From positions 1 through 26,448 of IMG/VR virus record IMGVR_UViG_3300032298_000905: 26,448 nucleotides of DNA; one strand, given 5' to 3'. Numbering within the stretch: position 1 is the stretch's first letter; each line of letters opens with the position of its first letter. The DNA is from a virus. A model generated the notes under the pieces. The model worked only from the letters and a program-made list of their open reading frames with translations. It was not told the DNA's origin and ran no database searches. Below are positions 4,413-23,545 of the stretch, piece by piece. The position numbers and the translations under genes are program-made.

Positions 4413-6218
4413 TTAAGTATATGCCAAATCTAGGAGCATTTGCATCTTTATTAAACTATTTAACCCATCTTCCGGAACGGATTGTGGAGATGCTTGTCCG
4501 CCACCTGCAGATCTTGGTGAAGAAGATATCATTGGTTGGCGATCATCAATATAGATGATTTGTTGACCTCTTCTTTCCTGAGTAATTTGAGGCACATTTT
4601 GTCCTGGTGATATTGGAGGTGAGACTTGTGCTATTTGTGATTTTTGATTTTTAAGAAACGATATTGGGTCAAGACTATTCTCAAATCCACCTTCTATTTT
4701 TTTTCTAATTTCATAGTGAATAACTCCAGTATTGCTTTCTCCCACTGCAACTAAATCTCCAGGTTTAATTGTTTGACCCGGTTTAACCACTATTTTTGCA
4801 GCTTCAGCAATTCTTTCATATACCCCAAGTTCCTTATTGTATATGTCTGTTGCCCATCCATCTGCACCAAATCTAAAAGGACTTCCAACAACAACTCCCC
4901 CAATTCTACTATAAAATTTAGCATTTGGTCCACTAATATCAAAATCGACACCAGCATGTTTTCTGGAACCTCCATCTCTTGAAGCACCATAATTTTGACC
5001 TGGGATAGTATTTGTTCTAGGTAATGATGGCAAAGAACCTTGGGATATATTGGATGCCTGTGCTAATTGAGGTGATATTTGATTTCCTTTAGGTAAATTT
5101 ACTCTAGAACTAATTCCGGTTCTGATAACTTGTGCTTCATCTTTTCTCCTCCAAGCATTAACTCCACCATTATCTCCAGATAATCCTACAATTCCTTCAG
5201 CTATTTTTTCAGAATTTCCACTTTTAACCGCAGATAAAATTCTAGTAGGTATTGATCCATAATTATATACTATTGAAGTTAATGCAACTCTAGTATTCTC
5301 TGGTAATTTATTCCAGTTATCCAATCCAATTTGCTTTATTGCTCGTTGTCTGTGATCATCAATCGCATCCCTTTTCATTTGGATTGATTGCTCAGCAGTA
5401 ATTGTGTCTCCTTCTCTCACAGGTCTACCATTAATCGTGGTATTCCCTTCACCGATAGTCCATTTTCCTCCACTATCTTTATATGCTTTCAATCTAGATC
5501 CTTCATATGAACCTAAAAGTTTTTCAACTTTTTCTTGCTCAGATCCAGTAATAACCCCCCCTTTAGTATAATCAGTACCTGTTGGAGGAACTGGTTCCTC
5601 TCCTGCACCTTCCCCCAAAGGAGTTGTGAGTAATTTAAATCCCTCTTCAAATTGATTATTAAAGTCATCAAAAGTTGATTCCAAACCTTTCATTGCAGTT
5701 TGAACTTTTTTCTGACTATCTAAGAAATCTAAGTGTGTTACATTATACAATACTCCATTAAAAATATTTCCAAAATCTCCAAATACTTTTCCTACATTAG
5801 AAATAAATCCCTGCAATAATGAAAATAGAGATTGAACTCTTTTAATTAAATCCTTCACCATTGTCAAGATAGTTGGCAAATTATAAAGTAACCAACCAAC
5901 CAACATAGTAGTAATAAAATCAAGAATTCTTCCTAAGAATCCTTTGGCACTTTCGGTTGCAACTGTTCCTGCCCTTTTAAATACTCCACTAATTCCAGTA
6001 GCTTCTAATATATCTTCTTGATCCCTTCTTCCAATATTTTCAGTTCTTCTATTTTGTAAAACTTTTCTGCCAGCAATTGCCTGCCTTTTAAATATGGTTC
6101 GATTTAAAATAGCAGTTTTAATACTACTAACAGATTGCTTAGCACGATTTAATCCCAATTTTAGAGATCGAATACTTCCAGAAACATTTTGTATATTGAT
6201 AGGTGATGATATTGCCAT
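4413..6218 (-). CDS. Tail protein with membrane/tape-like N-terminus, GH24-type lysozyme and M23 peptidase domains
   Basis: 601 aa. Residues 1-60 are basic. Residues ~97-122 are hydrophobic (GRILDFITTMLVGWLLYNLP). Residues ~226-370 are a T4-lysozyme-like domain: YEGSRLKAYKDSGGKWTIG gives Glu239, Asp248 and Thr254, the equivalents of T4 lysozyme E11, D20 and T26. Residues ~405-525 look like a LytM/M23 peptidase with His421-x3-Asp425 and His501 as metal ligands. The first His of the usual HxH is Val499, so peptidase activity is doubtful. The rest is Pro/Gln/Ser-rich linker. It is the only visible murein hydrolase in this tail operon and so the likely cell-wall entry enzyme. It overlaps its upstream neighbour by 1 bp and may share an N-terminal module with it. 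Confidence 0.8.
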   Translation of the reverse strand: MAISSPINIQNVSGSIRSLKLGLNRAKQSVSSIKTAILNRTIFKRQAIAGRKVLQNRRTENIGRRDQEDILEATGISGVFKRAGTVATESAKGFLGRILDFITTMLVGWLLYNLPTILTMVKDLIKRVQSLFSLLQGFISNVGKVFGDFGNIFNGVLYNVTHLDFLDSQKKVQTAMKGLESTFDDFNNQFEEGFKLLTTPLGEGAGEEPVPPTGTDYTKGGVITGSEQEKVEKLLGSYEGSRLKAYKDSGGKWTIGEGNTTINGRPVREGDTITAEQSIQMKRDAIDDHRQRAIKQIGLDNWNKLPENTRVALTSIVYNYGSIPTRILSAVKSGNSEKIAEGIVGLSGDNGGVNAWRRKDEAQVIRTGISSRVNLPKGNQISPQLAQASNISQGSLPSLPRTNTIPGQNYGASRDGGSRKHAGVDFDISGPNAKFYSRIGGVVVGSPFRFGADGWATDIYNKELGVYERIAEAAKIVVKPGQTIKPGDLVAVGESNTGVIHYEIRKKIEGGFENSLDPISFLKNQKSQIAQVSPPISPGQNVPQITQERRGQQIIYIDDRQPMISSSPRSAGGGQASPQSVPEDGLNSLIKMQMLLDLAYT

Positions 6219-7834
6219 TACATTATTACGTTATAACTAACTTGAGAATATAATGCATAAAAATTATCAGGATTTGATGAAGAGAACAATGGAACATCAG
6301 TCGCTGATCCGGAACTTGAAGGTTGTGATTGTGGTTGAGAATTTGATCCACCCGAACTAGCATATACGATGTTTGGTTTTGCCTCAGGTTCTGGTTGAAT
6401 ATTAGTGGGTATGGTTGGAACTTTTTGAACTTGTGCCTGGGCAATTTGTGGAATACTTGGTTGAGAAGAAGTTTTAGCATTTATGGGCATTTCATTATTA
6501 TATGTGGAAGGGGAAGTTTGTTCCGATGCAGTTTCAATAGATGGTGAAGGTGATCCTAATGGTTTTGGTTTTGGTGGCACCATTTTATCTGTTGGCATTG
6601 ATTTTGCATTATCACTATTCTTATATGTAACCTCTGAACCAATGGCAGCAGCGGTTGTTGCCATTGACAACCAAGCCAGAGGTGGAATAAGACTAGTTGC
6701 TGAAGCAGTCCCATATAGTGACGCTCCCAACATATTTCCCTCCTTTGCGGATTCAATAGCACTCCACAAATTAAGTAAACTTCCAGCAACTGGCATAGCC
6801 CCTCCCACAATTCTAGAAGCAGCTTTTCCTGCCACAGCCTGTCCAGCCTTTCCAGATCCCCCTCCAAAAAGTTTAGACAACCAATTTCCACCTTTACTTC
6901 CTGCCTTCGCAATATCATCAGCAGTTCCCGCTCCCATAGTGACTGCTGCAGCCCCTCTTGCCCCTGCTCCAGCAGCTGCTACTGTTGCAGGTTTTGCTCC
7001 AATTCCAAGCGCCTTTTTACCTAGATTTAATAAACCTCCAAAGAGTCTTCCAATCGTATTACCTATTATAAACTTTCCCAATTTAAAAGTAAGTTTGGTA
7101 ATAAGACCAACAACTCTGAATATACCAACACTTAATACCCCTAATATTCCACCAACAACTAGCAGACTCTTAATTACATTATTTTTAATATCTTCTAATT
7201 TTTTCTTATTTCCGGTGGAAAGTGCTTTGAGAACATCCAATCCTTGTATGGTTAACCAACCACCAAGCAATTGTGAAATAAAACTCATTAAAGTTCCGAA
7301 GGCAGATTGAACTTTATTACCAATCTGCTTAATTGGCCACATCAATGCTTCTCGGATTTTAGATTCTAACTGTTTCTCCTTCCCTTGCCTTATTCCCGCT
7401 TCCGCTAATTTCTTTTCTTGTTCTTGTGCTAGTCTTTCTTTCTGCTGTTCTACTGCACCTTCATTGACAATTAAGTTTGCAATTTGTTGAAGATTATTTC
7501 CAAGATCAACAACACTTACCTGTACGACATTAATCTGCTGTTGTAAATTATTAATTTTTGCTAGATTAGACAAAACAGCATTATTTTGTTTTGTCAGATT
7601 ATTAATTTGAATTTGAAAAGAGGTGATAGTATTAGTATTAGTTCTTACAATTGCTAATGTTTGTGGATCTGGCCCCCTATTTGCAGGAACCAGTGCTCCA
7701 CCACGACCTCCACCAAAAACACTAGCAGAAGATATTTGACTTCTTCTGAATAACTCCTTTCTTTTTTCCGCAGACAAAGGAGACCCTGATACTGGGTCTA
7801 TACCACTTTGAGCAATTTCTGCGAGATTAACCAT
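6218..7834 (-). CDS. Tape-measure-like tail protein (coiled coil plus hydrophobic core)
   Basis: 538 aa, no recognised family. Residues ~65-160 are a Gln/Asn-rich coiled coil (NNLTKQNNAVLSNLAKINNL, then EQQKERLAQEQEKKLAEAG). Residues ~165-270 are helical and hydrophobic with putative membrane segments (LLVVGGILGVLSVGIFRVVG). An Ala/Gly-rich stretch (~280-345) and a Pro/Ser/Gln-rich tail follow. It is placed immediately after gp26/gp51, where tail chaperone genes precede the tape measure in many phages. T4 gp29 (590 aa) has similar length. The tape-measure role is inference; an internal tail or hub protein is the alternative. Its start overlaps the gp51 stop (TAATG). Confidence 0.55.
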   Translation of the reverse strand: MVNLAEIAQSGIDPVSGSPLSAEKRKELFRRSQISSASVFGGGRGGALVPANRGPDPQTLAIVRTNTNTITSFQIQINNLTKQNNAVLSNLAKINNLQQQINVVQVSVVDLGNNLQQIANLIVNEGAVEQQKERLAQEQEKKLAEAGIRQGKEKQLESKIREALMWPIKQIGNKVQSAFGTLMSFISQLLGGWLTIQGLDVLKALSTGNKKKLEDIKNNVIKSLLVVGGILGVLSVGIFRVVGLITKLTFKLGKFIIGNTIGRLFGGLLNLGKKALGIGAKPATVAAAGAGARGAAAVTMGAGTADDIAKAGSKGGNWLSKLFGGGSGKAGQAVAGKAASRIVGGAMPVAGSLLNLWSAIESAKEGNMLGASLYGTASATSLIPPLAWLSMATTAAAIGSEVTYKNSDNAKSMPTDKMVPPKPKPLGSPSPSIETASEQTSPSTYNNEMPINAKTSSQPSIPQIAQAQVQKVPTIPTNIQPEPEAKPNIVYASSGGSNSQPQSQPSSSGSATDVPLFSSSNPDNFYALYSQVSYNVIM

Positions 7835-8019
7835 TAGGATTGTTGATTCTTAAGATTTTCTTCTTCGATATACTGTTGCAATAGAGTGATATAAATTTCC
7901 CTCTCCCACGGCATTAATTCTCCTAACTCTGTCAAACTATATTTATGATGTTGAATTAGAGCAAATGTTGTTTTATAATATGATGCTAGGTCAGTATGAG
8001 AAAGGGCTACACGAAAAAA
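7834..8019 (-). CDS. 51: gp51-like baseplate hub assembly protein, in -1 frame of gp26, no normal start codon
   Basis: The frame reads ...RVALSHTDLASYYKTTFALI, continues through HHKYSLTELGELMPWEREIY and ends EEENLKNQQS at TAA (7836-7834). It resembles the short gp51 homologues of cyanophages, baseplate hub assembly factors. No ATG, GTG or TTG precedes the conserved part; an in-frame TGA lies just upstream at 8043-8041 (approximate), and the first TTG and ATG fall well inside the conserved core. The frame is -1 to gp26, and a T TTT TTC heptamer at 8019-8013 lies two codons before the gp26 stop. I infer production as a gp26-gp51 fusion (about 297 aa) by -1 frameshifting. A non-standard start, such as ATC, is the other possibility. 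Confidence 0.6.
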   Translation of the reverse strand, partial: FFRVALSHTDLASYYKTTFALIQHHKYSLTELGELMPWEREIYITLLQQYIEEENLKNQQS

Positions 8020-8726
8020 GCAGATAGTCCTTCCAGAACTACTTCACTTTCAACTCCAGTATTAGGATTTTTCAATTTAATTGTATGAGAAAGTTTAGGC
8101 ATTGTCTCAAAGAACTTTTCAATTTCTTTGAACTGTTTCGAACTTAGTTGTTCAATAAATTCCGAAAGTTCTTTTTTAGTACAGTCCGAAGCATTCCAGG
8201 ATTCTTCTTCATTATAAACTTGTTCGATGCATGAGCAGATCAAATCAAATGAATCTTCGACACTTACTCCAGATTCTGCATTAAAGTTGTTCTTAATGAA
8301 CTCATTCATTGATGGATACTTCATTCTCATGGTCAATGCTTCATCTAGTTTAATATCCCTAGAATGATTCTCATTAGTCTCAACATGAATTTCATCCAAA
8401 TTAATGGATACTTTAACCTGAGTTGTATTATCGTCTGGACAAGTTACAAGAACTTCTGCAACCTCTCCTACAGATTTACCACGAATATTCAAGAACAAAT
8501 ATTCAATATCAAAAGTTGAAAGATTTTCTACTTTAATACCTTTACTCAAAATACAGTTAGAAATTACAGTCTTGACGGCATTTCCAATTTGTTTATTATC
8601 CTCACTCTCCATCGCAATAATGAGAACTTTTTCTTCTTTTACTAAAAATGGTCGGTATCTAATTGTTTTCTTTAATGAAGGAATTTCCAATTCATAAATT
8701 GGTGTAGAAATTTTAGGTAAAGGCAT
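8007..8726 (-). CDS. 26: Baseplate hub subunit gp26
   Basis: 239 aa. Matches the T4-like gp26/baseplate family in style and length (T4 gp26 is 208 aa): N-terminal ISTPIYELEIPSLKKTIRYRPFLVKEEK, then VISNCILSKGIKVENLSTFDIEYLFLNIRGKSVG, and an acidic C-terminal half. The ATG at 8726 has AGGA 6 nt upstream and a CTAAATAC late element 23 nt upstream. It is the first gene of the leftward tail operon. The C-terminal coding end carries the slippery heptamer leading into the gp51 frame. Confidence 0.85.
   Translation of the reverse strand: MPLPKISTPIYELEIPSLKKTIRYRPFLVKEEKVLIIAMESEDNKQIGNAVKTVISNCILSKGIKVENLSTFDIEYLFLNIRGKSVGEVAEVLVTCPDDNTTQVKVSINLDEIHVETNENHSRDIKLDEALTMRMKYPSMNEFIKNNFNAESGVSVEDSFDLICSCIEQVYNEEESWNASDCTKKELSEFIEQLSSKQFKEIEKFFETMPKLSHTIKLKNPNTGVESEVVLEGLSAFFV
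8013..8032 (-). promoter_or_regulatory. Candidate -1 frameshift site (slippery T TTT TTC with upstream SD-like AAGGA)
   Basis: In the gp26 frame the codons are GCT TTT TTC GTG TAG. The heptamer T TTT TTC (8019-8013) fits X XXY YYZ. An AAGGA motif (8032-8028) lies 8 nt upstream, comparable with the Shine-Dalgarno-like stimulator of the E. coli dnaX frameshift. After the slip, reading continues with CGT GTA GCC into the gp51 frame. I saw no convincing downstream hairpin by eye. Confidence 0.55.
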
Positions 8727-8758: not shown

Positions 8759-9586
8759 TTAGATTCTAAAAGTATTTTCAAATACAATTGGATTTGATGC
8801 TAATGCATTTGCAGCTTCAAGATTTATGGTTCCATCTTTAATTGCAACATCTAAAGAAGATACTGTCTTGGCAATATTTGCAATTTGCTCATCATTTAAA
8901 ACTGAAGTTAATTTATTATTTTTATCAGGTACTGAAGATTCTTTATTATTATCAGTACTTGTACTTATGTCAAGACTATTAACTCTACCAGAAACATATC
9001 TAGTATACATGAATGATGCAGTTGCTGTTAAAACCTGTGATTCATCATAAGAAACTGTTGGGGAAGAAAGTGCCTTTGGAAATAATCCAAAGAAATTATA
9101 TTCAATTTCTTCTTTATAATCACGATTGAACTTCAGAATTTTTGTGCCATCACATTTATATCCACTTGCAGGATCATTAGGATACTTCATTCGATAGAAA
9201 TATCCGGGACTTGACTTTCCTACATTTGATCCACTTGAAATATACTCCATCCAATGTTCAATGAATTTCAGTAATTTATATTCTTTATCAACATAAAATG
9301 TCAAATCAATCTGATTGAACATTCTAGTATGGGCAAATTCTTCAGTAACTCCAGTATAATTTCCAGTAATACTTGCCGTCGCAAATGCACTTCCAGGTAG
9401 TGATGCAGAAGAACATAGTAATCCAGCACTCTCCATAATGAATCCTCTATCCACACCTCGCAGTGCCAGATAGTTCATAAGATTTGGAGAAAGTGCTCCA
9501 AACATTACTTGATACTGAGATGTGTGTGCGAGATTACCAAAAAGAGGTTTGATCTCTGATATTTTTCTTGGACGTGCTATTGACAC
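8759..9586 (-). CDS. Tail-tube-fold baseplate protein (gp54/gp19-like)
   Basis: 275 aa from GTG 9586. Residues ~20-215 resemble tail-tube-type proteins: TSQYQVMFG strand, a SLPGSAF loop (compare ALPAG in T4 gp19), FIEHWMEYI helix, and IEYNFFGLFPKALSSPTVSYD followed by LTATASFMYTRYV (compare the LWPTNVGE...FEVTLALDYW end of gp19). Next to gp48 and gp53 it may be the gp54-like tube initiator, but gp19-type tube protein is not excluded. Longer starts at 9628 (ATG) and 9793 are open, but a minus late promoter element lies at 9621-9614, inside those extensions. GTG at 9586 puts it 27 nt upstream, the spacing seen for gp26 and gp4. The Shine-Dalgarno before GTG is weak. Confidence 0.6.
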   Translation of the reverse strand: MSIARPRKISEIKPLFGNLAHTSQYQVMFGALSPNLMNYLALRGVDRGFIMESAGLLCSSASLPGSAFATASITGNYTGVTEEFAHTRMFNQIDLTFYVDKEYKLLKFIEHWMEYISSGSNVGKSSPGYFYRMKYPNDPASGYKCDGTKILKFNRDYKEEIEYNFFGLFPKALSSPTVSYDESQVLTATASFMYTRYVSGRVNSLDISTSTDNNKESSVPDKNNKLTSVLNDEQIANIAKTVSSLDVAIKDGTINLEAANALASNPIVFENTFRI

Positions 9587-9587
9587 T

Positions 9588-9595
9588 CTAAATAC
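9588..9595 (+). promoter_or_regulatory. Late promoter element for gp4-gp53 block (CTAAATAC)
   Basis: CTAAATAC on plus, 26 nt before the gp4 ATG at 9622. It is an exact inverted copy of the element at 9621-9614 on minus. Confidence 0.6.
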
Positions 9596-9613
9596 TTTTA
9601 AAGTCTTATATAT

Positions 9614-9621
9614 GTATTTAG
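9614..9621 (-). promoter_or_regulatory. Late promoter element for tail-tube-fold gene (CTAAATAC)
   Basis: CTAAATAC read on minus, 27 nt before the GTG start at 9586. It faces the plus element at 9588-9595, with the two elements enclosing 18 bp. Confidence 0.6.
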
Positions 9622-10062
9622 ATGTCATATAAAGGAAAATATCAATTAAAAAATCCAAGTAAATATAAGGGAAATCCCACTTTAGTAATATACAGATCCT
9701 TATGGGAAAGATCTTATATGAAAAAACTTGATTTAAATGAAAATATATTAGAATGGTCAAGTGAAGAAATTGCCTTACCCTATAAGTCTCCACTGGACAA
9801 TCGTATTCATAAATACTATCCAGATTTTTATGTAAAGGAAAGACTCAGTGACGGAACTATAAAAAAATACATCGTAGAAATAAAACCCAAGAAACAAACA
9901 TTAGAACCCAAAGTTCCAAAAAGAAAGACCAAGGGATATCTATATGAGGTAATGGAATATGCAAAGAATCAAAGTAAATGGAATTCTGCCAGAGAATATT
10001 GTAAGGATCATGGATATGAATTTAAAATTCTTACTGAAGATGACCTCAATATAAAATACTGA
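9622..10062 (+). CDS. 4: Head completion protein gp4
   Basis: 146 aa, close to T4 gp4 (150 aa). The body (YRSLWERSYMKKLDLNENIL, WSSEEIALPY, HKYYPDFYV, KKYIVEIKPKKQ) shows the PD-(D/E)xK nuclease-like core: Asp in YPDFYV, then Glu-x-Lys in VEIKPK. gp4 acts at the head-tail joining step, closing the filled capsid before tail attachment. It is first of four plus-strand genes, overlapping the next by 1 bp (tgATGg). The start is fixed by the late element 26 nt upstream. Confidence 0.88.
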   Translation: MSYKGKYQLKNPSKYKGNPTLVIYRSLWERSYMKKLDLNENILEWSSEEIALPYKSPLDNRIHKYYPDFYVKERLSDGTIKKYIVEIKPKKQTLEPKVPKRKTKGYLYEVMEYAKNQSKWNSAREYCKDHGYEFKILTEDDLNIKY

Positions 10063-15184: not shown

Positions 15185-15901
15185 TCATTCTTCATTTATT
15201 ATAGCACATTTATCATGATTTGTAATTTTATTCCACATTTTTCCATTTTTAATTTTGGTTATGTGTCCCTGGTTAACATTAAACATATTTGCTATTTGAT
15301 TTTGTGTTAAACTACCTTCCCAAGAAAGATTATAAATTTGTAAAATTTGCTCTTCATTCAATTTACTCATAGGATGAGAAGTTCCAGGAAATCTATTATT
15401 TAATTTTTTAATTGTTTCTGGCGAAAACTTTCTCCCTTTATTTGCTTTTGAAATTTTTTCCTTAACATCATCAGTATGAAATTTACCATAAAAAGGATTT
15501 TTTTCACCTTTCATATTTTCGCTCAAATTTTTTTTATATTCATCTGAATGAGTTTTTCCATACATTCCATTTTTTTCGCCTCGCACTCTTTCATTTATTA
15601 TTCCAGTTCCCTTTAATAAAGTATTTGGATTATGTAAAATTGAAAATCCTACAGATTTTTCATTAAAATTCATACACTTTGGATCATTTATATATTTGGA
15701 AATATATTCCTCCTCTTTTTTAAGAAGTTCTTCTTGGTTTTCACAAAATAAAATAATATCTCTTTTTAAATTAGATTTATCTTTAATAGATCTTATCCAT
15801 TTACCACTACCAAAATATCCATCATTTATATCATTGGTAGTATGCCTACCATAATAATATAAACCAGAAGAAGAATATGTTTTATAAATGAAATGAAACA
15901 T
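15185..15901 (-). CDS. GIY-YIG/NUMOD3 homing endonuclease (Seg-like), free-standing
   Basis: 238 aa. Residues ~5-70: GIY-YIG-type start IYKTYSSSGLYYYGRHT and GYFGSGK. Residues ~105-170: NUMOD3 DNA-binding repeats (GEKNGMYGKTHSDEYKK, GEKNPFYGKFHTDDVKEK, KGRKFSPETIKKL). C-terminus ~185-230: helix-turn-helix (LTQNQIANMFNVNQGHITKI). Such enzymes cut phage DNA lacking the gene and spread by repair. It lies between phoH and the exonuclease and looks more AT-rich than both. A TATAAATA element precedes it; its C-terminal end contains an early promoter for the next gene. T4 SegG lies next to gene 32 in a comparable region. Confidence 0.85.
   Translation of the reverse strand: MFHFIYKTYSSSGLYYYGRHTTNDINDGYFGSGKWIRSIKDKSNLKRDIILFCENQEELLKKEEEYISKYINDPKCMNFNEKSVGFSILHNPNTLLKGTGIINERVRGEKNGMYGKTHSDEYKKNLSENMKGEKNPFYGKFHTDDVKEKISKANKGRKFSPETIKKLNNRFPGTSHPMSKLNEEQILQIYNLSWEGSLTQNQIANMFNVNQGHITKIKNGKMWNKITNHDKCAIINEE
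15198..15226 (-). promoter_or_regulatory. Extended -10 sigma70 promoter for exonuclease-gp33-gp59 group
   Basis: Minus: ATTACA (15226-15221, 4/6), 17-bp spacer, TATAAT (15203-15198) preceded by TGC (extended -10). It lies inside the last codons of the homing endonuclease. Its 14-bp AAATGTGCTATAAT is identical to the promoter at 25968-25981. Confidence 0.65.
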
Positions 15902-19942: not shown

Positions 19943-22900
19943 TCAAAATCCAAGATTCTTTTGTCGAACAAATTTTAAATCATAGGATGTATAAGTAATT
20001 GGCATGGTTGAAATGTTATAAGGATATTGGTGGGGTTTATAATTCCAAATACAATGATGATTTATTACTCCATTCGAATCTGCCACATATCCACTCCATT
20101 GTGATCCCCACTTCTCTTCCATATAATAATGATTTGAAGTATGGGCATGATCCAATTTCTCTTTCAAACTCATATCAGTTCTCCAAGTTTGGGAACCAGT
20201 TGTTTCATAATTTTTTTCACCATGAAGATATGGTAAATTCATGTCGTATATTATAACATTTTGTTTTTGAGTTCGAATAAAATAATCACAATCTTCAACA
20301 TAAGCAGGATAAAAATTCTCATCAAATAATCCACATTTTTCAACCACCCAATCTTTAAGTAAGAATATATCCCACTGGGATTCCTTTCCTTTAATTATAC
20401 CATATTGATCATCTTTTTCCCTTTCAAATAATTCTTTAAGAAGACCTGGAGAAAATGCAACATCATGATTCACAATTAACCAATAAGGATCCATCATGTG
20501 AGTTTTAATAATTAAATTCCAAGATCCAGAAACTCCAATATTTGCTGGAAGATTGCAAATTTTAATTTTTCCAATAAATTTATGTTGAGTTTTAGAAAGT
20601 TTTTCTAAATCATCATCAAGTTCTCCTCTTCCATTATTATTGATTACACATAATTCTTTAACCGGATAATCAATACTATCAACTAATCTTTGTAACCAAT
20701 GAAATCCATTAACAATCGGGACTCCAATTACTGGAATTGGATTAAGTTTTTTTTTTTCCAATACGGTTAATCCGTTATTATTTGTCTTATGAATTTTAAA
20801 TTGCCATTCTGGATTACTGATTGTAAATTCAATAATTGCCGGGAGAAGACCCATAGGATTTTCAATATAACCAGTTACAATTTCACCCGAACTGGAATTT
20901 GAACATTTTTCTCCCGTAACTCCATAAGTTTGAGTATCATGAAATGCTATGTACTTTTTAACTTTTTTGGAATGAGTTTGAAGTTCATGTTTTAACTGCT
21001 CATACTGATGCCAAGTATCAATAAACAATAAATCAGTATCTTCGATTTCAATATTGAGAACATCGGATTCAACATAAGAAACATCTTTACCCTGTTTCTT
21101 TGCTACATCAAAAAGATGATTTACATTTGAATCAATGCTAAGATCATATGATCTCAGTTTAGCACTAGTATTTAAAAATGCTCTAGTACTTGAACCAGTT
21201 CTTACTCCAAATTCGGTGATGTGGGAGCATTCTTTTGCAATTTCATATAGAACTGGAAGATTTTGATTAATATCACTTTCAATTTTACAAGCATTTTGAT
21301 ATTCTTCTTCAAAGAAATTTTCACTAATTACAATATTTTTAATTTTAGTCACAGGAATCTCCACTCCCATTTTAGTTAAATTTTCATCTACTGCCTTTGA
21401 ATATTGTTCAGATAAAGAATAATTTTGTCTTAAATCTAAAAATATTTCCTTACACTCTTTATCCTTACCCCACCAATATCCAGAAACTGCCTTTTCGAAA
21501 AGTAAACAATATTTACCTAGATATTCCACATCAGTACGAAGAGGAGGATAAGATTCATGATCTGCAAACATCAATCCTTGATCTGCATAAATGTAACAAT
21601 CCTGCCACCATGCTCTTCTTTCGGCAAATCTACTCAAAAGAAAATATGCTTCAGGTCTCCTAGGCATTAGGCAAAGTGCTCGCTCAAGAAGAGATTTTGC
21701 ACTGCCATCTCTAGTACCTTGTTTATCGTAGCAATATGATGCCCGAATTAGTGATTCATATGCAAGATTATCATCTTCAGATCTTTCAGCAGATCTCAAA
21801 AAGTATGATAGTGCTGGAGCAGTATGTCCAGAATTCTCATACCATACTCCCAAATTAAAATTATTAACTGAATTTTCAGTATCCAAAGAATACTTAGTTA
21901 ATAATCTTTCCAATTGATTTTTTTCAATAGGATTTTCAGGTAAGAGATAATTTTTAACTCTTAAAAGATTCCAAATAATATCAGGAAGATTTTCTGTTGG
22001 ATATTTTTTAAGTATTTGATTTACATTCCCAGAAGGAGAAATTTGCCCTTCTTCAGGAAAATAAGATCTCATAAATTCAACATGCTCTTCTTTAGTGTAA
22101 TTTTTATTCAAAAGCATTTCTAAATTATCATTTGCATGACAAAATGATTGAAATTTATATACCCTATCTTCCGAAGATTGCATCCAGGCAAAATGCCATC
22201 CCAAATCTAAAAATATTTGATTATTATCTCCAGCATATAAAAATTCAAAATTTTCTCCATTTCGAATATGAGTTGCTGAATTTTGTTCTAAATGTTTTTT
22301 CAAACACATAAACATAGATTGATCCCAAGGTTCTCTATTCCCAGATTTATCATAAACTCTCAAGTCTGCTCTACCTTCAAGGAGAACCAAGGGAACTTTT
22401 AAAATGCTAGAATTATATTTAACTATATCACTTAGGAAATTAATATTGTTGGGATTAATAATCTCATCACAATCACTAACAATAAAAATAGTATCGTCAT
22501 CAAATTTATCTAAAACATTCTTAATTGCATCTCTTTGGAATCTTTCTCTACTTCCAACTTTGGCACTTGAAGAAAATCTAATATCATAATCTATAGTTGG
22601 TGGGCCTACAGATTCATCAGACATATCCAATTCAATCAGATGTATCTTATCTTTCGGTAAATTAAGTTCTTCAATTACTTGTCTGCAAGTGAATTCTTTT
22701 TGATTTCCACTATGAGTATAATTTCCATCCACAATTACAAATAAATCTACATGATCTTTTAAAAGATTTATTCTAAGTTCTAATAATTCCTTTTCATTAA
22801 AATAAGGAAAGCAATCGACAACATTATACTTTTTCATTTTATTTTTCCAATAACTTAATACAATTTCATGGGCAACTTTGTGATTATTTTTTTGTCCGGC

Positions 22901-23545
22901 ATTTACATCATTATCTTGATCTTTAGAAAAGGTTGAATCAAATTCAATATTTTCTACAAATAATGGGATAGTATAACTTTTACCTACACTAGTAAATAAA
23001 ATATTTTCTATCAAGGGCATTATTTCGGAATTTGGAATTTCTAGGTGAAATATATTTCTTTTGATGTAAGTATCTATAATCTTTTTAGCATAGTCTCTCG
23101 TAAGAATATATGCAGTTGCTCCCCAATCATTCCAATATCTTTCACGAATTTCAAAAGTTTCAAAATTATTACGAATTGTAAGTAACTGAACACACTCAGC
23201 ATCTTCCGGTAAAGATTCTATAAATTCCTCCCAAGTAAAATCCCAATACTGAACAGTTTCTAATGAAAGATCATCCTCAAAAAAGAATGCATAATCTTCA
23301 CTTGTAGATTCATACCAATTTTTAATTGCTTTTAAATGGGATACACAACATCCTGCTGTTCCAGCATTCAATTGATGTAAATACTTTCCCATTACAATAT
23401 CATTCGATTCGGAAAATCTTTTTGAAACAATAGGAATGGGGGATATTCCATATTTTTTAAATTGATTGGTAATATTTTTCTGACGATCTACACTTTCCTC
23501 TAAAGTCACATAATATGAGGTTGGAAAATTTTCTAATTTATTCAT
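19943..23545 (-). CDS. Giant multidomain glycosyltransferase: GT25-GT17-TPR-methyltransferase-GT2
   Basis: 1200 aa. Residues ~8-210: GT25 family (AGCCVSHLKAIKNW ~64-77, FFFEDDLSL ~87-95 with the DxD-like acidic motif). ~240-530: GT17-like (VVDCFPYFNEKELLELRINL, VDGNYTHSG, SDCDEIINP ~357-365). ~545-730: TPR-like helical repeats (SYFLRSAERSEDDNLAYESL). ~740-930: class I methyltransferase-like (ITEFGVRTGSSTRAF, DLLFIDTWHQYEQLKHEL, AFHDT). ~935-1170: GT2-like (VIGVPIVNGFHWLQRLVDSI, NHDVAF acidic motif, YVEDCDYFIR). Overlaps the upstream GT2 gene by 4 bp. It likely builds one glycan in sequential steps on a virion protein or host surface sugar; the acceptor is unknown. Confidence 0.8.
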   Translation of the reverse strand: MNKLENFPTSYYVTLEESVDRQKNITNQFKKYGISPIPIVSKRFSESNDIVMGKYLHQLNAGTAGCCVSHLKAIKNWYESTSEDYAFFFEDDLSLETVQYWDFTWEEFIESLPEDAECVQLLTIRNNFETFEIRERYWNDWGATAYILTRDYAKKIIDTYIKRNIFHLEIPNSEIMPLIENILFTSVGKSYTIPLFVENIEFDSTFSKDQDNDVNAGQKNNHKVAHEIVLSYWKNKMKKYNVVDCFPYFNEKELLELRINLLKDHVDLFVIVDGNYTHSGNQKEFTCRQVIEELNLPKDKIHLIELDMSDESVGPPTIDYDIRFSSSAKVGSRERFQRDAIKNVLDKFDDDTIFIVSDCDEIINPNNINFLSDIVKYNSSILKVPLVLLEGRADLRVYDKSGNREPWDQSMFMCLKKHLEQNSATHIRNGENFEFLYAGDNNQIFLDLGWHFAWMQSSEDRVYKFQSFCHANDNLEMLLNKNYTKEEHVEFMRSYFPEEGQISPSGNVNQILKKYPTENLPDIIWNLLRVKNYLLPENPIEKNQLERLLTKYSLDTENSVNNFNLGVWYENSGHTAPALSYFLRSAERSEDDNLAYESLIRASYCYDKQGTRDGSAKSLLERALCLMPRRPEAYFLLSRFAERRAWWQDCYIYADQGLMFADHESYPPLRTDVEYLGKYCLLFEKAVSGYWWGKDKECKEIFLDLRQNYSLSEQYSKAVDENLTKMGVEIPVTKIKNIVISENFFEEEYQNACKIESDINQNLPVLYEIAKECSHITEFGVRTGSSTRAFLNTSAKLRSYDLSIDSNVNHLFDVAKKQGKDVSYVESDVLNIEIEDTDLLFIDTWHQYEQLKHELQTHSKKVKKYIAFHDTQTYGVTGEKCSNSSSGEIVTGYIENPMGLLPAIIEFTISNPEWQFKIHKTNNNGLTVLEKKKLNPIPVIGVPIVNGFHWLQRLVDSIDYPVKELCVINNNGRGELDDDLEKLSKTQHKFIGKIKICNLPANIGVSGSWNLIIKTHMMDPYWLIVNHDVAFSPGLLKELFEREKDDQYGIIKGKESQWDIFLLKDWVVEKCGLFDENFYPAYVEDCDYFIRTQKQNVIIYDMNLPYLHGEKNYETTGSQTWRTDMSLKEKLDHAHTSNHYYMEEKWGSQWSGYVADSNGVINHHCIWNYKPHQYPYNISTMPITYTSYDLKFVRQKNLGF

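Follow-up and report, generated by a model that had tools for sequence, protein, structure and literature searches.

We investigated how a conserved reading frame with no start codon of its own is expressed in a 26,448-nt stretch of viral DNA (IMG/VR record IMGVR_UViG_3300032298_000905, positions 1 to 26,448; hereafter the window), whose source virus is related to cyanobacterial T4-like phages. The frame encodes a gp51 domain (TAC-C; 8013-7834, minus strand; 59 codons plus TAA) and lies in the -1 frame relative to a homologue of gp26, the short form of the tail-assembly chaperone (TAC-N; 8726-8007, minus strand; 239 aa; PF12322, E = 1.5e-74; phrog_150, E = 1.4e-82). The 59 residues match phrog_634 (E = 1.8e-25), which is annotated as "baseplate hub assembly catalyst" (gp51); with a PF12322 short form and a gp51 C-terminal domain, the window belongs to the gp26/gp51 family. 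A TGA at 8046-8044 (minus strand) closes the -1 frame upstream, so the gp51 domain cannot start inside gp26. From 8043 the frame is open to the TAA at 7836-7834 (minus strand), and its earliest starts (the TTG in YSLTE and the ATG in ELMPW) fall within the conserved domain, with none before it. Direct reading thus confirmed what had been noticed from the sequence alone, i.e., that the gp51 frame is -1 to gp26, is closed by TGA, and lacks a start before its conserved part.

A slippery heptamer, T TTT TTC, is found in the gp26 frame at 8019-8013 (minus strand), two codons 5' of the gp26 zero-frame stop (TAG, 8007-8009, minus strand), and an SD-like AAGGA, a probable stimulator, lies 8 nt 5' of the heptamer (8032-8028, minus strand; anti-SD energy -5.5 kcal/mol). 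Both elements, which the sequence-only reading had pointed out, were read directly from the 3' end of gp26, GAA GGA CTA TCT GC[T TTT TTC] GTG TAG, where the protein ends A-F-F-V-stop. TTTTTTC is common by itself in this AT-rich window (32 copies vs. about 25 expected); an in-frame heptamer within the last five codons, however, was observed in only 1 of 696 other long ORFs (the gp26 of the window excluded), so the rarity lies in the heptamer being in frame at a gene end and not in TTTTTTC alone.

We consider it very probable that this site directs a programmed -1 frameshift of the lambda G/GT type, from which two tail-assembly chaperones would result, of 239 aa (short form) and 297 aa (long form). 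Most ribosomes would end gp26 at the TAG and release the 239-aa TAC-N, and a minority would slip from T TTT TTC to TTT TTT, assisted by the upstream AAGGA. The slipped ribosomes would read on through the gp51 frame, which is predicted to be read only after the slip, and would produce a TAC-NC fusion of 238 + 59 = 297 aa, the length of about 297 aa anticipated from the sequence alone. Both proteins are probably chaperones that would keep the tape measure soluble and recruit tube subunits during tail assembly. The AlphaFold2 model of gp26 is confident (mean pLDDT 87), and a fold search with it listed the HK97 tail chaperone 2OB9 near the top of the PDB matches, at a nonsignificant level (E = 1.2, prob 0.33-0.41); a PDB sequence search with gp26 gave no convincing match.

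The gp26 query matched 689 phage records. Relatives were drawn from IMG/VR and isolate genomes and gave 252 loci in which the end of gp26 is complete, 109 of them nonredundant. The T TTT TTN pattern recurs in 250 of the 252 loci and in all 109 nonredundant ones (TTTTTTC: 101; TTTTTTT: 7; TTTTTTG: 1), the two loci without it being T4-like Escherichia coli phage G8 and Vibrio phage K357. Aeromonas phage Aswh_1, which like G8 belongs to Straboviridae, retains the heptamer. At control Phe-Phe pairs from the same loci, T_TTT_TTC was found in 29 of 638. Conservation of the slippery site among relatives thus far exceeds chance expectation, and a chance heptamer is ruled out by these two counts together with the single case among 696 ORF ends. 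The codon 5' of the heptamer varies (AGT, TCT, AAT, GCT, GAT, CAT, or ACT, encoding S, N, A, D, H, or T) and always ends in T. Because this holds over six amino acids, selection on the protein alone is an insufficient explanation, and the possibility that Phe-Phe is kept for the protein only is ruled out by the invariable T at the wobble base before the pair.

Isolate genomes with the same frame relation include S-PM2, P-SSM4, P-HM2, and Bellamy, which bears on whether the two ORFs are truly one that was split by an assembly error, or whether gp51 is dead. Such an error would be conceivable in a single metagenomic contig, homopolymers being error-prone, but the frame relation recurs in 250 of 252 loci including isolates, and purifying selection acts on the -1 frame (see below). 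These comparative data refute assembly error and gene decay, to which we assign practically no probability.

A tblastn search with the gp51 domain matched 544 phage records, and the matches usually start with residue 1 of the domain, the one that follows the heptamer. All 108 of the related loci compared keep the -1 frame open over 50 codons or more, and neither of the other frames stays open that far in any of them. Substitutions in the -1 frame among similar loci are concentrated at the third codon position (21203 vs. 11087 and 5198 at the other positions), a pattern indicating that this frame is under purifying selection among relatives. The comparison of heptamer and frame across T4-like phages that the sequence-only reading had called for was therefore strongly positive (heptamer: 250/252; open -1 frame: 108/108).

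A conserved frame could also be translated as a free small gp51, either by ribosomes that reinitiate past the gp26 stop or from a weak or nonstandard start in its own frame. The fourth codon to be read past the slip is indeed ATG in 53 of the 109 relatives, late starts are annotated in Bellamy (3232 in L083) and S-T4 (1255 in L261), and K357 has a TAATG overlap. However, the window has CTT at the fourth codon, and 26 of the 109 nonredundant loci have no ATG, GTG, or TTG in the checked stretch, which comprised 14 codons after the slip and the -1 frame back to the upstream stop. The 53 ATGs are without an SD (mean -0.61 kcal/mol, 0 of 53 at or below -4), many of them fall within a hairpin's 5' arm, and a free gp51 would leave the invariant heptamer unexplained. 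We regard a free gp51 as quite improbable and retain the frameshift as the source of the gp51 domain.

The proposed upstream stimulator was supported by pairing with the anti-SD sequence in the 24 nt 5' of the heptamer (mean -6.96 kcal/mol vs. -2.26 kcal/mol at control sites), and the best SD-like pairing lies 6-9 nt 5' of the heptamer in 102 of 109 relatives. Synonymous shuffles already reach -5.22 kcal/mol, so much of the SD-like signal is due to conserved Glu-Gly residues. This SD-like site, together with the hairpins described below, points to the ribosome, and not to RNA polymerase slipping on the T run, as the agent that joins the frames. Poly-T runs are capable of polymerase slippage, and a few relatives have 7-8 T, but 102 of 109 loci have exactly 6 T, and the run is kept short by the C at the last base of the heptamer in 101 of 109. 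The review in PMC5009743 describes transcript slippage at stretches of 9 A or T. Polymerase slippage is thus highly unlikely here, and ribosomal frameshifting remains the preferred reading.

The analysis of downstream structure covered the 73 distinct junctions whose gp26 is most similar to that of the window, a selection made without regard to structure. A 10-bp hairpin starting 6 nt 3' of the heptamer is 78.6% paired in this set, compared with 26-46% when slid, and its covariation (0.159 vs. 0.094) was reached in none of 500 shuffles. One hairpin pair appears as U-A in 28, G-C in 13, and A-U in 12 junctions, counts that are nonindependent because the sequences are related. In the main clade the fourth-codon ATG of gp51 sits in the 5' arm. 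One clade has a covarying GTATG..CATAC hairpin that constrains the gp51 protein, with an Ala wobble base covarying with a Glu/Ala/Val codon. The hairpin of S-PM2 is of another type (z = -3.84), and further clades have unrelated ones (CCCTC/GAGGG type). Folding revealed no downstream hairpin in the window (z = +0.8 and +1.1), and no such hairpin is present in its closest relative (L002, 82% identity), so the hairpin cannot be essential. We tentatively suggest that the heptamer is near-fixed in T4-like phages while the RNA stimulator turns over, in which case the frameshift rate and the short:long chaperone ratio may have been retuned by lineage.

The two loci without the heptamer represent other arrangements of the pair. 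T4-like phage G8 encodes gp26 (208 aa) and gp51 (249 aa) in distinct genes on opposite strands, and both proteins match PF12322 over its full length (E = 3.5e-63 and 1e-55, respectively). G8 gp51 additionally matches the gp51 domain at its tail end, so it represents a long-form gp26 paralogue, i.e., a separate-gene solution. G8 and the window thus have homologous short and long forms, but those of G8 come from separate genes, and no frameshift is needed. In Vibrio phage K357 (L089:3219-3400), a gp51-like domain with the motif YNSLMPW lies in the -1 frame behind a TAATG overlap, and there is no slippery heptamer, which shows that the frameshift is not universal; K357 represents a third arrangement of the gp26/gp51 pair. 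The gp26 proteins of Vibrio phages D481 and K357 were scanned against viral contigs, and no relatives were found.

The slippery site of phage lambda is G GGA AAG, whereas the window has T TTT TTC with an SD-like element, and its relatives have hairpins. No sequence similarity was found between gp26 and lambda G. The predicted likeness to lambda G/GT is in a low-frequency -1 shift near the end of the short chaperone, which in lambda falls between the genes for tail tube and tape measure (PMC5009743) and in the window between a tail tube gene and a candidate tape measure gene. The window also resembles E. coli dnaX in its upstream SD-like element, and its relatives resemble dnaX in their downstream stem-loop (PMC3711429). 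The two systems are unrelated, however; the window has no stem-loop, and the shift would extend the protein here but ends it in dnaX.

The neighboring genes are in keeping with a tail-assembly role. The gene upstream encodes a tail tube protein (8759-9793, minus strand; PF23849 Phage_TTP_2, E = 1.6e-17; the listed ORF exceeds the gene length), and the next gene (6218-7834, minus strand; 538 aa) is a candidate tape measure whose start overlaps the gp51 stop (TAATG). The order of tail tube (PF23849), chaperone, and long helical gene fits the usual order of tube, chaperone, and tape measure. The sequence-only reading had suggested that this next gene may be the tape measure, and its adjacency, its length variation (387-1167 aa in the 144 loci where a gene abuts gp51), and its very long predicted helices (57-150, 154-207, and 210-275, in a low-confidence model) are in favor of this. 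No similarity between the 538-aa protein and T4 gp29 was found by Pfam, PHROGs, or hhalign, so we only infer the role; by position and predicted helicity, a tape measure is plausible. A second tape-measure candidate of 601 aa (4413-6218, minus strand), with a phage lysozyme match and a weaker M23 peptidase match, adjoins the 538-aa gene. S-PM2 has a single 1167-aa gene in the position after gp51. The 538-aa protein ends in a C-terminal motif, SSNPDNFYxLYSxxxYNV, that is common to relatives and possibly serves as a docking signal.

Elsewhere in the window, 15185-15901 (minus strand) encodes a NUMOD3-containing protein (E = 4.2e-16) that is possibly a homing endonuclease, and 19943-23545 (minus strand) encodes a 1200-aa protein with GT17, GT2, and GT25 glycosyltransferase-like domains. 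Both contig ends (1-201 and 26346-26448) consist of tandem repeats with one shared 9-base unit (CCTTGAGTA / TGAGTACCT), so the assembly probably broke within an array coding for LEYLEYLE-type repeats.

Frameshifting in T4-like tail chaperones has already been published (Vladimirov, Gautam & Davidson 2022, as cited in PMC10885494 and PMC12846349). That study is the source given by the PRFect paper (PMC10885494) for short and long forms encoded by separate genes, and by the phage Adele paper (PMC12846349) for TAC-N genes of T4-like phages that contain poly-T slippery sites; the window likewise has a poly-T slippery site in a TAC-N gene and a TAC-C in the -1 frame. The earlier proposal that gp26 and the fusion form a chaperone pair agrees with the published work, as far as it is represented in these two papers, and with G8 gp51 being a gp26 paralogue. 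The idea itself is not new, and the contig is a well-supported further example of a published kind. The 2022 study by Vladimirov and colleagues reportedly found frameshifting to be conserved in several T4-like groups and T4 to use genes 26 and 51, the gene pair seen in the window. What is new is this uncultivated member and the scale of conservation, and possibly the lineage-specific hairpins. Neither downstream hairpins nor their turnover is mentioned in PMC10885494 or PMC12846349, and the analysis of these hairpins is possibly novel.

Annotations of this locus are routinely wrong: the public records of S-CAM1 (L259) and ACG-2014d (L260) omit gp51, and those of Bellamy and S-T4 give it an internal start. 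A joined gp26-gp51 CDS would fit the evidence better than the current public annotations, and joining would yield the long chaperone for a phage group that is among the commonest in the ocean. One need appears to be met in two ways, through frameshifting in most sampled lineages and through a gene for each form in G8, and the relatives are naturally occurring variants in which the effect of stimulators on the chaperone ratio could be measured.
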